Assembly (NCBI GenBank): GCA_943704525.1
Contig: CALSCQ010002277.1
Span: 1 to 22,715, forward strand
Direction: 5' to 3'
Length of the DNA stretch: 22,715 nt
DNA from: Pigoraptor vietnamica
Taxonomy: Eukaryota; Opisthokonta; Filasterea
This document shows positions 5,394 through 11,330 of the stretch, in pieces; the stretch's first letter is position 1, and every line of letters starts with the position of its first letter. Below the pieces are notes generated by a model. That model made no database searches. It was not told the origin of the DNA and was given only the letters and a program-made list of their open reading frames with translations. The translations under genes were made by a program, and so were the position numbers.

Positions 5394-7507
5394 CAACACG
5401 CAAACACAAATTAAACACGATTCACTGGCGTGCCTCACCGTGGAACACAAGCTGCGACTCCTCCGGAATTTTCCATATCCTCGTGCTGCAGTCGCGACCA
5501 CCCGCCGTCACCGCCCTCTCACGAAGCAAGCTGTCAATTGCGCTCACACCGTCCTGGTGGCCAAACCTACGCACAACACCGGCGTGAGTCTTAGGCTCAC
5601 ACGCATGAATGTAACGCACTGTCGAGACGAATGCACATGCACCCCACCACACACACACACACGCACCCACACCCACACACATACACCCACACAAACGGGA
5701 CATCCTCCTACACGCACACACGTACACACGCCAATCCACCCACAGGGTCTCCACATAGGCCATCTCGTCCACATTCCAGATCTTGACCGTCCTGTCCTGT
5801 CCCGCGCTGAACAGCGTGTGCGTCATGCGCCGAAAGGCAACCCCGTTGACAGGGCCGCGGTGTCCCTTGAACACCTTGGCCACTTTCTTCTCCGCAAAGT
5901 CCCACACGATAACGAGCGCGTCACGTGCCCCCGTCGCCACGAAGCGCCCGTCACTGCTCACAGCGATCGCGAGCACGTGATCCGTGTGCCCGGGGTGTCG
6001 CCCGGCCGTCTCTTTCCTACCCCCCGGGAACACGTGCACCTTCCTCCCCGTCGACAAGTCCCACTGAATAACGGACGCGTCCTTCGAGCCAGTGTACGCA
6101 AAGCGATCGTCGTCAGACACGCACACGCACGTGAGAGGCAGCTTGTGCCCGTTCCCGCACTGCGATACTGTCGCGCCGGCGTCAACGTATCGGTGTGCGA
6201 CGCGATTGTGGATGCGGCCGCTGCGCTCCATCACGTCTTGCTGAAGTCTGCATGTGTGTATGTAAGCGTATGTAGTGTGAGTACGCATGAGAGAGTGAGT
6301 GCGTGCGTGTGAGGCTAATTATATGGTGTGCGAACACCAAAACAGAGCACTCACACCACTTCACCACAAGCAGCGACGTACAAGCCGCCCTCGTCCACAC
6401 ATACAGCCGCCCTCGTCCACACACACGCACTCCAGTGAAGCAAACGAAGCGACGCCACATCACAAGCGCGAATTCCCGTTTCAAGTCGTGCGCACCCACC
6501 TGTGTGCGATCGCATCTCTGTCGATTTCCGCGTCGGAATTTTCCTCCGCCTCGTGCTGTTCCAGCTGCTGAATGTACTGCTTCGCCAACCTCACGCGCTG
6601 CGGTCCAGGTGTGTGCATGTGTGTTCGTGCGTTATGAGTGAGTATGAGTTAATGAGTTTGGGAGATCCGACAGGCGTACACTCAGGAAGACAGCAAATTA
6701 AAGAAGATGCATAAGTCGGGGGCACATACACGAGGAGAGAATACATAAGGGACCAAGGAGGCACAACACGAGGAGAGAATACATAAGGGACCAAGGAGAC
6801 ACAACACGAGGAGAGAATACATAAGGGACCAAGGAGGCACAACACGAGGAGAGAATACATAAGGGACGAAGGAGGCACAACACGAGGAGAGAATACATAA
6901 GGGACCAAGGAGGCACAACACGAGGAGAGAATACATAAGGGACCAAGGAGGCACAACACGAGGAGAGAATACATAAGGGACCAAGGAGGCAACACAATAC
7001 CTTCTCCGCAGCGTCCTCTTCCTCAGACGCGTCGCTCTCTTCGCTCTCCTCCATACGCTTGTTGTCATCGTCACTAAGAGGTAGACGGAATTGAATTAGC
7101 ACTCAAAAGAAAGACCAACACGCACGCAGCACACACATACACACGCACGCGCGCACATACACATGAACACACACGCATGCAAACACGCACATACACAACA
7201 ACCCACCGACCCACCGACCCACAAAGACCCACCGCCCCCAATCCCACACAACACCCATATCGGCACATATGCACCCAACGCACCTCAGCAACGGCCCATC
7301 GTCCTCCTCTTCATCTTTTCGCATCTTTTTCGCGGATGGCCCCTTGCCCTTGCCCTTACTCTCCGCAGCATTCGGTCGCTTTCCGCCCTTGCCGCGCGAG
7401 TCCCTTCCCTTCGTTTTGTTCTCGCGATCCACATCGCCGCGCTTTCGCTTCACGTTGCGCCCGTTGGCGCCACCGCCCGCAACGGGCATAAAGAACGGGT
7501 CGTTCAT
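4104..7507 (-). CDS. RRP9: RRP9 / U3-55K, WD40 protein of the U3 snoRNP
   Basis: RRP9 binds the box B/C motif of U3 snoRNA and acts in the nucleolus in 18S pre-rRNA processing. Nine exons join with perfect phase (minus strand, 5' to 3'): 7507-7284, 7073-7001, 6597-6500, 6247-5744, 5566-5439, 5189-5120, 4946-4816, 4535-4456 and 4274-4104, giving 492 aa (human is about 475). The N-terminus is Lys/Arg-rich (nuclear/nucleolar signal), then an acidic stretch, then RLAKQYIQQLE, a family hallmark. Seven WD repeats follow from about residue 160, including GHTDHVLAIAVSSDGRF, GQDRTVKIWNV, YVETLFGHQDGVSAID, WKIPEESQLVFHGHTGS and TWVSSVASL. The C-terminus has AAVGQEHRLGRW, typical of RRP9, and an acidic ESESEDD tail. 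The ATG at 7507 is the first in frame. All eight introns are short and most carry sense UG repeats. The gene is divergent from the HMG-box gene. Confidence 0.95.
4335..4362 (+). repeat. uninterrupted G28 homopolymer in last RRP9 intron
   Basis: Twenty-eight consecutive G on the plus strand lie within the RRP9 intron 4275-4455. In the RRP9 transcript this is a C28 tract ending about 60 bases before the 3' splice site. The DNA G-strand could form a G-quadruplex or triplex. The exact length may be affected by sequencing or assembly error. Confidence 0.9.
4652..4754 (-). repeat. (TG)n in sense of RRP9 intron
   Basis: CA repeat on the plus strand, so UG in the RRP9 transcript, within intron 4536-4815. 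It begins about 60 bases downstream of the donor at 4815. Confidence 0.95.
5254..5400 (-). repeat. (TG)n in sense of RRP9 intron
   Basis: Two CA runs on the plus strand (about 5256-5284 and a pure run at about 5329-5391), UG in the RRP9 transcript. They lie in intron 5190-5438, the longer one about 47 bases from the donor. Confidence 0.95.
5645..5725 (-). repeat. short TG-rich tract in RRP9 intron
   Basis: Imperfect CA/CCCA repeats on the plus strand, UG-rich in the RRP9 sense, within intron 5567-5743. Confidence 0.85.
6731..6996 (-). repeat. 38-bp minisatellite, seven copies, in RRP9 intron
   Basis: Seven head-to-tail copies of a 38-bp unit start at 6731, 6769, 6807, 6845, 6883, 6921 and 6959, with only one or two substitutions per copy (for example GGAGAC for GGAGGC, GGACGAA for GGACCAA). 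The array lies in RRP9 intron 6598-7000 and stops about four bases from the donor (GTATTG at 7000 reading down). The sense strand is CU-rich. Because 38 is not a multiple of three, all three minus frames stay open and repeat Leu-Val-Pro-Tyr-Val-Phe-Ser-Pro; these are not proteins. Confidence 0.95.
7125..7215 (-). repeat. TG-rich tract in first RRP9 intron
   Basis: CA-rich imperfect repeats on the plus strand, UG-rich in the RRP9 sense, within intron 7074-7283. Confidence 0.85.
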
Positions 7508-7990
7508 GTCGACACTGTCCAAGCACTCTTGGATGCGCAAGTTGCCGAAAGATGCTGTTTGCTGTCGTTCTCTTATGAAAGACAGGTCAGCCGAGTGGTT
7601 GCACGTGTTGGGGCCTTAGCGGAGGGGGCACTCGATGAATTGAAACTGTGTCACCAATTCATACCAATTGTCCGAGACAAGTTCAAATAAAAGTGGCGGA
7701 CAGAGAGTAACATGGGCTGTTTTGCTTTCCTCGATTTTAAAAAAATTTAGGACCTCTACCGTCTCAGCATGAGTACCCCTGCGTTCTCAGTGACTATAAT
7801 CTAAGCTTTCGACATATCTCTCTCTCGGCGTATCGCTGCGTTTGTGTGCAACCGACGTTCCCTTGTCGAAAAAATGGGGAGTTTGGATACGCTTCCCTCC
7901 GAGCTTATCGTGGTGGACATGTGCTTCGATCAGCCGACAAGCGCGCGCTCGCCCACACATGCAGTCCATTTCTCTCTCTTTTGACCTCAG
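7508..7990. promoter_or_regulatory. divergent spacer between RRP9 and HMG-box gene
   Basis: Between the RRP9 ATG (7507, minus) and the first firm exon of the HMG gene (7991, plus). It must hold both promoters and the missing 5' exon of the HMG gene. A short A-rich run lies at about 7738-7748, and ATGs on the plus strand at 7769 and 7874. I see no clear TATA box. A bidirectional promoter is inferred from position only. Confidence 0.45.
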
Positions 7991-8406
7991 AACGCATCTA
8001 CCGCCTACGGGCAGAGTACAACCGCAAGTGCATTCGCGATGCCGCGTTTCGCGAACAAGTTGCGGCGATCATTCCCTCCAATCGGCTCGTGCTTGTGTAT
8101 TGGGACGCGCCGCGCCAGCCGGTGTCGGCGTTCTTTCTCTATCTCAACGACATTCGGCCCGAGATTCGAAGGGAATTTCCCGACATTTCCATGACCGATG
8201 TCGTGAAAATGATCGCAGAAAGGTGGAAGGCGCTCTCGGACGAGGGGCGGGCGCCGTTTTTCGAGAGCGAGGCGGCCCTCAAAGCCCGTTACGACGCAGA
8301 GCTGGCCGAGTACAATGCGCTCGAAGCATTCAAAGCCACCGACGGCGTCTGCATGCGCTGGGTTAGTGTTAACGAGGAGGAGGAGGAAGAGGAGGGTGAT
8401 GAATGA
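7991..8406 (+). CDS. HMG-box protein with acidic tail (5' exon unresolved)
   Basis: HMG boxes bend DNA by minor-groove binding and act in chromatin or transcription. The box spans about 8110-8319, starting PRQPVSAFFLYLNDIRPEIR and containing SMTDVVKMIAERWKALSD and the usual aromatic/basic helix-3 residues. It is preceded by a helical stretch (ERIYRLRAEYNRKC) and ends in seven consecutive Glu plus GDE, like the acidic tail of HMGB proteins. A strong acceptor (pyrimidine tract then CAG at 7988-7990) opens this exon and needs a phase-1 donor upstream. The frame is also open back to about 7846 but has no ATG there. The ATG at 7874 lies in another frame and reads MGSLDTLPSELIVVDM, resembling an F-box start, but I cannot find a good donor of the right phase to join it. 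The domain call is firm; the N-terminus is not. Confidence 0.82.
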
Positions 8407-8831
8407 TCGGGTTCGTTTTGCTGCGACGCAAAGTTGGTCGCAGTCGGCGGCGTCATTTTCGTCAGCGGCCTAACCGGGCAAAAGCCATTGAGTGTAAGTG
8501 TGCGGCATGCCGTTCTGCCGTGGTGCGGTGCGTGTCGGTTGGGTGTGCCGGCGGGGTCTCGGCAGGCACTGTAGGCATGTAGTGCACGGATTGCGTGTGC
8601 CGTCCCGCGGCAGCTGTTATTGTCGAGTCATTCGTTAGCGATAATCTCATTGCGCACGCCCGACACGCAGTGGATGCGAACGCACCGGCTACTGAGCCCC
8701 AGCCCAGTGGCCCGAACTGAACCTACGGTCCGTCGTCGCCATCCCATAATGTCCGATGGCCTTCCCCTGCAACCGCAAGTGTCTCGCTTCGCAGATACAC
8801 TGTACCATGTATGAAGCCATGCATTCATTAG
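8407..8831 (+). other. 3' flank of HMG-box gene
   Basis: Non-coding by appearance. It presumably holds the 3' UTR of the HMG-box gene. I see no repeat, no clear polyadenylation signal and no convincing ORF on either strand. Confidence 0.5.
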
Positions 8832-9240
8832 CACGTGTTAACACTGTGATACCAAGTGTGAGCGCGTGTGAGTGCCCAGTTCCACGTGTTTAAATTACTC
8901 GGATTCACATCTGATTTACACATCCATTCATACGCTGTAAAACCACACATTTCCACGTGTCAACACTGTATTTCCAGTGTTAACACTGTAAAACCAACGT
9001 TTTAGCACTGTATTTCCACGTGTTAAACACGCATTTCCACGTGTTAACACTGTATTTCCACGTGTAATAAACACGCATTTCCACGTGTTAACACTGTATT
9101 TCCACGTGTAATAAACACGCATTTCCACGTTTTAACACTGTATTTCCACGTGTTAAACACGCATTTCCACGTGTTAAACACGCATTTCCACGTGTTAAAC
9201 ACGCATTTCCACGTGTTAAACACGCGTGTTTAAACACGTC
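8832..9240. repeat. minisatellite of 21-23 bp units carrying CACGTG E-boxes
   Basis: Tandem units of the form TTTCCACGTGTTAA(A)CAC(TG/GC). Exact CACGTG palindromes begin at 8832, 8883, 8954, 9017, 9038, 9059, 9082, 9103, 9147, 9168, 9189 and 9210, and a degenerate CACGTT at 9126. From 9017 onward the spacing is 21, 21, 23, 21, 23, 21, 21, 21 and 21. Many units also contain the palindrome GTTAAC, and the array ends in GTGTTTAAACAC near 9226-9237. The left part (8832-9000) is more diverged. It sits about 600 bases upstream of the NERD gene start. Confidence 0.95.
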
Positions 9241-9837
9241 AACAGGTGTTCAACAGCCGGGACGGAAGAAGGTTGTCGCCGCAACTCGGCGAAACGTGAC
9301 TGCAGTGTACGGTTGTACTTACGCCGGCGGTCGTAGTCCGCGCACGCGATAGACGCAGTCGTTGCGCAGTGGGAGAAGCTGAAGCGACTGCTGGCCGTTG
9401 CGCGTCGACCCGTTTCTTTTCGCCTTGGAGTTACTATCACTGCCAGCGGGTGGCGTCTTTAGTCGATCGCACGAAATCCCCAACAGGCTACTTTGCCTCT
9501 GCCGCGCATTGTGTGCGTGCGCATGTGCCAGCGAGTAAATTATGGGTGCTTTCCTGCTTTTGTTTTCTGTTGTAGCGGTTGTGTGTGTGTGCCGTATGGG
9601 GAGGGGGAGGAGTGCCAAAATTTTTGGTAGCCGGCGGATTGACACATGCCCGGCGATATGGATTATGCCATTCACTTGCGCTCGTAACCTGTCAATTCCT
9701 TTCACTCTCAGCTTCAAATAGTTGTTGCGTGCTGGTGTGCGGCACGTGCATGTGCGGCGATCGCGAGCGTGCTTGCGTGCCATTCTCTCTGGCCACGTTT
9801 GGAGAGGAGGCCAACCGCGCGATTTGACCCTCAGACC
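9241..9837 (+). promoter_or_regulatory. upstream region of NERD-domain gene
   Basis: No coding exon is apparent. It presumably contains the promoter and 5' UTR of the gene starting at 9838. It is moderately TG-rich in places, with a short purine run at about 9600-9612. No TATA-like element stands out. Confidence 0.4.
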
Positions 9838-11330
9838 ATGGCAACATTCGGCGAGCGCATGCGCCACGTGGACCTCGCTGCAAAGCCGTCCGAACATTCC
9901 GAACGCCCCGAAGTGCGCGCCGGTCGCGACGCCGAGATAAAGTTCGCGGAGAAGCTGCTCGAACTGCGCGGGGTCGACGAAGACAATGTACGGTGCGGTG
10001 TGCGCGTGCCGCGGAAATACACCGATGCCGTGCCTGGATGTAAGGGTCGGTGGGTTACTGTTTCCGTTCCCTTTGTTTGGAATCGCATTCGTCTTTGGCG
10101 ATGTGCGCATGTGATGCGCGTGCGCTGCGTGCATGCCGATGTGTGCCTGTTGTTGTGCACGTGTGCGTGCGCGTGTGCGTGTGACTTTTTTGACTGCCAT
10201 CTATTTCCACTCTTGTACTTCTTCTAATGCATTATTGCGCGCGTTGTCTCTGTGTCTCTCGCACGCAGCGAAGTTGACGACTGTACTTCGTTTTCTAATA
10301 CATTGTGTGCTTTGTCTCTCTCTCTCGCACGCAGCGAAATTGACGTCGTCATTGTCACCGTTAACGGAATCGCCGTTATCGAAATCAAAAACTGGAGCGG
10401 CTCGATAGAACTTCCGGGCGACGGCACTCTCCGGCAGACTCGGCGCAACGGAGACGTCGCAGTGCACGACGACCCCATACAAGGGACGCGCGCGAAGGCG
10501 AAGGCGCTGTGCCTCTTTCTCGCATCGAAGAACGTGCGCGTGGCGGAGAGCGACGTCGCCGTGCGTGTGGCGTTCGTCAACAGCCGCCTGGAGATCCCAA
10601 AGGCCGTGCGTGCATTGCAGGAAGTGATACCCCCCGAGAAGGTAGCCGAGTACATTTCCTCGCACCAGCGCGGGATCTCTTCGTATCTGTTTGGGTGGAT
10701 GCTGCCGACGTTTCTCGGCGGTCACAAGCTGAGTGCGGAAACGGTGAAGGCGGCGGAGGAGGCCATCGCGACGCTGCCGACGTGGGACGTGCTCGAGCTC
10801 AACGGAGGACGGAAGGCAGTGGGTGACTTCAGGGAAATGGAGGGGTGCGCGCTAGCAAGGTGTGTGGCTTTGTGGCGGCATGATGCTCAGTTGTGTATTG
10901 TGCCCACAATCGCCCTGGCGCACGCACGCACGCGACATACACCGCGCACTCCAACGTGCTCTTGAAAGCGCGCTCAATGGTCCTTGGTACGCTGCACGCG
11001 CAACATTACATCGCACACGCGCACGCGCACGGCGCGACATTTCTTCTCTCCGTAACGCGGCTGTTGCACGCGTCAATCTCAAGCGCACTTACATGCAGGC
11101 GCGATGTCTCCAAGGTGTCCTTCGAGCACAGCCGCAGCCGCTTCCTCGGCACTATCAAGGCCGTGTTTGGCGTCGACGCCCACGTGACCGCCCGCATGAA
11201 GCTGCGAAAGGGGGGTCATCGCCACGAGGACCTCCCCGTCACAGCGGCGATTGTGTTTCAGGAGTGCTCGAGCGCGGAAGTGACGCGCTTTTCGGTCAAC
11301 GATGCAGTGAGGCTGGAGCTCAGCGTGTGA
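9838..11330 (+). CDS. NERD (nuclease-related) domain protein
   Basis: Three exons, 9838-10049, 10335-10844 and 11099-11330, give 317 aa in continuous phase. The ATG sits in ACCATGG, a perfect Kozak context. The NERD domain runs from about residue 28 (RAGRDAEIKFAEKLLELR) through REIDVVIVTVNGIAVIEIKNWSG (about 71-93). Asp74 and the Glu87-x-Lys89 pair match the D...ExK pattern of the PD-(D/E)xK nuclease-like core, so the catalytic set looks intact, though activity is unproven for most NERD proteins. The middle (about residues 120-240) is helical, and the C-terminal exon is beta-rich with FQECSSAEVTRFSVNDAVRLEL. NERD domains are commonest in bacteria and plasmids, so a eukaryotic multi-exon copy is notable. 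The second donor could be 10845 (GTGCGC) or 10860 (GTGTGT); both keep frame. The first intron ends in a duplicated acceptor. Confidence 0.88.
10215..10346 (+). repeat. tandem duplication of a 3' splice-site region (66-bp period)
   Basis: Two copies of a segment running TGTACTTC...CTAAT-CATT...pyrimidine tract...CGCACGCAGCGAAxTTGACG, about 10215-10280 and 10281-10346. Each has its own CTAAT branch-point-like motif, polypyrimidine tract and CAG; the AGs end at 10268 and 10334, exactly 66 bases apart. The downstream copy is the acceptor that gives an intact NERD domain. Confidence 0.9.

Follow-up and report, generated by a model that had tools for sequence, protein, structure and literature searches.

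Locus and Array Architecture

The window, which is the whole 22,715-bp stretch analyzed here and constitutes one complete contig (C943) of the searched assembly (32.5 Mb, 1395 contigs), carries a tandem array of CACGTG-bearing units in the intergene between two protein-coding genes. The HMG-box and NERD-domain identities given to these neighbors in the earlier note are both confirmed by Pfam. The features of the locus are as follows.

7990..8406, + strand: last open stretch of the HMG-box gene up to its stop (8406); Pfam HMG_box, 2.8e-20
8832..8953, no strand: degenerate 5′ fringe, not part of the regular array, with a clear unit at 8832, scattered fragments, and CACGTG at 8832 and 8883
8954..9240, no strand: tandem array (minisatellite) of 13 units of 20–23 bp, the last merging into the 3′ end; delimited by TRF, unit cutting, and alignment
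9017..9209, no strand: best-kept core, whose nine units run B A B′ A B′ A B B B, with CACGTT in unit six
9211..9239, no strand: near-perfect inverted repeat ACGTGTTAAACACG / CGTGTTTAAACACGT with one unpaired base, at the 3′ end of the array
9838..10851, + strand: NERD-domain gene with a proposed ATG at 9838 and a proposed intron before ~10318, ending where the searched stretch ends; Pfam NERD, 1.2e-10 in 10318–10851

The intergene from the HMG-box stop to the proposed NERD ATG (8407–9837) measures 1431 bp, and the array ends ~600 bp before that ATG. Positions 9838–10062 gave no Pfam match, and an Rfam scan of the window returned no match at the gathering threshold. A coding repeat was considered and rejected, as stops occur in all six frames across 8932–9243, with the most open frame (minus strand, frame 0) containing two stops in 104 codons.

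Exact CACGTG sites begin at 8832, 8883, 8954, 9017, 9038, 9059, 9082, 9103, 9147, 9168, 9189, and 9210, which bears out the twelve sites previously claimed for this region (8832–9215). First-order Markov simulations of the window (n = 300) never placed more than five sites within any 409 bp, so the clustering is not a product of chance; it follows from tandem repetition, with regular units beginning at 8954. The window as a whole contains 41 CACGTG sites (shuffle mean 22.4), 29 of which lie outside the array. TRF reports a period of 21 bp (13.6 copies, 8936–9225, 80% match) and a higher-scoring alternative period of 42 bp (6.6 copies, 86% match), and both place the array among minisatellites, that is, head-to-tail units of ~10–100 bp. 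Of the 11 start-to-start spacings between sites (51, 71, 63, 21, 21, 23, 21, 44, 21, 21, and 21), six equal 21 bp. Cutting at CCA from 8832 yields 18 segments, 12 with CACGTG, and cutting from 8954 yields 13 units, 10 with CACGTG; these figures replace an earlier tally of 12 in 13 units from 8832.

Two unit types make up the array, A (CACGTGTTAACACTGTATTTC) and B (CACGTGTTAAACACGCATTTC), together with two copies of a 23-bp form, B′, that corresponds to B with a two-base insertion. The order of units in the core agrees with the secondary period of 42 bp. Upstream of the core lie four older units (8832, 8954, 8975, and 8995) and fragments. The contrast between TTAACACTG and TTAAACACGC can be read as a single linked difference between unit types (a one-base insertion, a one-base deletion, and a substitution) as opposed to many independent changes.

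Conservation and Helical Phase of CACGTG

Selection for binding would be expected to preserve CACGTG above the surrounding bases of the unit. In a column test of 13 of the 18 segments, aligned with hand-placed gaps and with inserted columns uncounted, CACGTG collected three minority letters per six-column window, a measure that is low in power because homogenization of tandem repeats can hide or mimic selection. Three of 21 windows scored lower (CCACGT with one, TAACAC and TTAACA with two each), and ACGTGT, GTGTTA, and TCCACG tied at three. The segments at 8853, 8877, 8883, 8944, and 9210 were omitted as too degenerate or truncated, those at 8883 and 9210 containing CACGTG. Every unit of the core retains ATTTC and CAC unchanged (9/9), and CACGTG is lost in one of them. 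The earlier note had claimed that CACGTG is better conserved than its neighbors and had named beforehand a lack of such excess as grounds for abandoning the idea; the column test finds no excess.

By the criterion of the earlier note, an enhancer composed of repeated sites would also be expected to hold them in one helical phase. With a helical repeat of 10.5 bp, the sites from 9017 onward, nine in all, fall at 0, 0, 0, 69, 69, 137, 137, 137, and 137 degrees, since the first 23-bp unit shifts the sites after it by 69 degrees and the second brings the shift to 137 degrees. The proposal that successive sites face the same side of the helix consequently holds within runs and fails across the array, where the phase drifts by ~137 degrees from end to end.

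CACGTG Words and bHLH Factors in the Genome

Counts of CACGTG and its flanked forms were compared with reversed control words, which preserve base content but not dinucleotides. CACGTG occurs 30,140 times against 19,933 for GTGCAC (1.51-fold). Among flanked forms, TCACGTGA stands out with 2891 occurrences against 491 (5.9-fold); the survey also covered GCACGTGC (4225 versus 3734), CCACGTGG (887 versus 562), and ACACGTGT (738 versus 1183). The flank type of the array, CCACGTGT, occurs 1727 times on both strands against 1197 (1.44-fold); it is not specially enriched and resembles CACGTG overall. Eleven of the 12 array sites are CCACGTGT and one is GCACGTGT; none is TCACGTGA, and a search for TCACGTGA across the whole window found none. 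The array thus lacks the form most over-used relative to its control.

A separate observation concerns TCACGTGA itself. Pairs of this word within 30 bp number 95 genome-wide against one for the control word and ~8 expected (~12-fold over chance). Among the 50 pairs listed of the 95, 12 are spaced exactly 10 bp start to start (loci L052–L063), forming a sharp peak with a binomial P of ~5e-8 for one given spacing, a value to be multiplied by 31 because the spacing was picked post hoc. Comparison of the 12 loci through their 300-bp flanks showed no similarity from one locus to another (blastn, E 1e-3), so the pairs do not look like one repeat family. Ten open stretches from eight of the 12 loci were searched with Pfam, with three matches over the cut-off (kinase, ubiquitin-like, and SNAPC1), a patatin match below it, and none for the other six. 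The 10-bp pairs may represent real cis-regulatory grammar with helical spacing, and TCACGTGA pairs may be a major paired E-box element in this organism; a literature search did not find TCACGTGA in a filasterean or protist context. As the window is devoid of TCACGTGA, this signal does not involve the array.

Cognate factors for CACGTG are encoded in the genome. A profile search for the HLH family gave 24 matches, all 24 over the cut-off. Twelve loci were fetched and eight were readable in frame, all eight with the His-Glu-Arg basic pattern that marks CACGTG binders. One of the domains is Myc-like (L027, 1501–1656; best PDB match “Myc proto-oncogene protein”, 2.7e-19), and another is closest to BMAL1/ARNT, then to MITF and USF. 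The Myc-like domain suggests that the organism is related to animals. Judged by their predicted basic regions, these proteins could possibly bind the array.

These data bear on the idea that the array is a homotypic E-box enhancer, in which CACGTG would recruit Myc/Max-, USF-, or MLX-type dimers and drive the NERD gene (or the HMG-box gene). The bHLH repertoire, the intergenic position upstream of the NERD gene, and the genome-wide excess of homotypic CACGTG and TCACGTGA clusters over the control word are all consistent with it, but the unexceptional conservation of CACGTG, the drifting helical phase, and flanks other than the over-used TCACGTGA make it unlikely. The same three results undercut the arguments put forward earlier for an amplified enhancer or boundary. 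A more specific version, in which a young and still-changing E-box cluster tunes the NERD gene through dimers of the Myc network, has a slim chance of being correct; if true, it would show slippage enlarging an enhancer in nature, in an organism that is probably a unicellular relative of animals.

Folding and Inverted Repeats

Type B units contain an odd-centered palindrome, CGTGTTAAACACG, and short hairpins result for both of those tested (energies −4.1 and −4.6 kcal/mol, z-scores −2.90 and −4.04), whereas the type A unit tested folds no better than shuffles (z 0.28). Positions 9000–9250, treated as single-stranded DNA, have a folding energy of −51.6 kcal/mol, where shuffles average −30.3 (z −6.40). 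The inverted repeat at the 3′ end lies within another single-stranded fold (9205–9245, −8.3 kcal/mol, z −3.17). A search for ungapped inverted repeats recovered two pairs, 8962–9001 and 8975–8986 with 9041–9052; the repeat at 9211–9239, with its unpaired base, is absent from that search.

Palindromic units could in principle act as insulating or stalling hairpins or cruciforms, and the fold of 9000–9250 and of the two type B units would fit such a boundary or structural element. Set against this are the type A unit tested and the fact that repeats of palindromic units fold well automatically, and this explanation is very improbable.

Genomic Distribution of the Unit and of CACGTG Clusters

A dispersed repeat or satellite would place the unit at many loci, an outcome that the earlier note had listed as telling against its reading. 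Searching the assembly with the 409-bp array found a single locus (very common words were skipped, and collapsed copies are possible), and the 14-mer TTTCCACGTGTTAA, with at most one mismatch, gave nine matches in the array and two elsewhere, against nine for its reversed control. Beyond this genome, a Levilactobacillus brevis plasmid matches the array (L013, 6001–6097; 80% over 97 bp) and carries four iteron-like copies of CCACGTTTAAAAACACATTT(T), 21 bp apart, just before the replication initiation gene of the circular plasmid. A relation to these plasmid repeats was rejected, the likeness being attributed to convergence of short repeats, probably by chance. That the array is a piece of some mobile or dispersed element, for which the plasmid match would be the argument, is accordingly almost certainly wrong, given its single locus, the scarcity of the 14-mer elsewhere, and the judgment of convergence.

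Clusters of three CACGTG with 12–24 bp spacers were found at 31 loci (45 matches), the present array included, versus seven loci (nine matches) for GTGCAC. Classified by spacer likeness and partly by eye, 14 of the CACGTG loci are tandem and 17 are not, compared with five and two for GTGCAC. A likeness threshold of 0.75 alone would give 11 tandem and 20 dispersed loci; the three counted as tandem by eye below it are the present array (C943, 0.73), C400 (0.72), and C595 (0.60), with TRF supporting C943 and C595. Against the density-scaled control, tandem loci are in slight excess (14 versus 7.6 expected, P 0.02) and non-tandem clusters in larger excess (P 0.0008), where both P values treat the small control counts (five and two) as exact and rest on classes assigned partly by eye.

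Ten further loci picked as tandem-looking all proved to contain a TRF array with CACGTG (10/10), with unrelated units and best or shortest periods of 11 (22), 19, 20, 21, 22, 24, 27 (56), and 30 bp. From this spread, 21 bp is not a favored period. One array elsewhere in the genome (L017, 1000–1650) is longer than the present one, with a 30-bp unit repeated 21 times, a 90-bp higher order, and eight CACGTG. The window also contains a second minisatellite (6721–6991; 38 bp, 7.1 copies, 97% matches) without CACGTG.

Minisatellites were also sought without regard to the motif. An evenly spread 40-kb sample yielded no array of at least three copies that passed a filter dropping units of only C/A, T/G, C/A/G, or T/G/C, which leaves some TG-rich arrays of that sample (14 to 72 bp) uncounted. 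When 37.8 kb surrounding 12 of the bHLH matches were screened, seven rows passed the filter and were taken to represent three separate arrays poor in CA/TG-like units (L023 at 2509, L025 at 993, and L028 at 2734), one of them with a 21-bp unit in 7.3 copies. None of the three contains CACGTG.

Origin of the Array

The array is best explained as an ordinary intergenic minisatellite whose unit contains CACGTG by chance, a reading to which we assign a probability of roughly 85%. The earlier note had offered this as one of its options, a plain minisatellite with an incidental E-box in its unit, and it gains support from the finding that CACGTG is not the best-kept hexamer across the 13 aligned units. 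The single locus, the other arrays of the genome with CACGTG in unrelated units or with none, the folding of the type B units, and the modest enrichment of the CCACGTGT flank type likewise speak for it. Two observations count against it: tandem CACGTG loci (14 of 31, or 11 by threshold) exceed the density-scaled control, and the array occupies an intergene upstream of a gene, a possible place for an enhancer.

Slippage combined with unequal exchange appears to be the simplest account of the structure. A 21-bp unit would have been copied 21 or 42 bp at a time, through slippage during replication or through unequal exchange, and this, judging from the unit order, would produce both the two interspersed unit types and the run of identical B units. 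A hairpin formed by the palindrome CGTGTTAAACACG of the B unit may have aided slippage. CACGTG would merely be part of what was duplicated, and CACGTG-binding transcription factors may touch the array, with no selection for binding found here.

As a minisatellite, the array is of little importance in itself; its value lies in the caution that striking motif arrays can arise by repeat growth alone. Genome-wide motif counts that include flanks and control words help separate repeat growth from motif signal, and in this case they led to a better E-box signal elsewhere, namely, the TCACGTGA pairs 10 bp apart.

Comparison with Known Systems

The other minisatellites of the genome (L017, L032–L036, L040, and L041, and 6721–6991 of the window) resemble the array in having units of 19–38 bp in three to ~21 copies, several with CACGTG. 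They differ in their unrelated units and in their match of 84–100%, compared with 80% (period 21) or 86% (period 42) in the present array. Outside this genome, a minisatellite of the IGH locus reportedly binds a bHLH-ZIP protein, and its function is said to have been studied experimentally; an E-box lies within the unit in both cases, while sequence and organism differ.

A human precedent is the hTERT minisatellite VNTR2-1st, which contains a canonical MYC-family CACGTG site in many of its repeats (PMC2915984). The likeness extends to a minisatellite with CACGTG in its repeats; the unit and the place are unrelated, and VNTR2-1st belongs to a human gene. A CACGTG-bearing minisatellite is thus a known kind of element.
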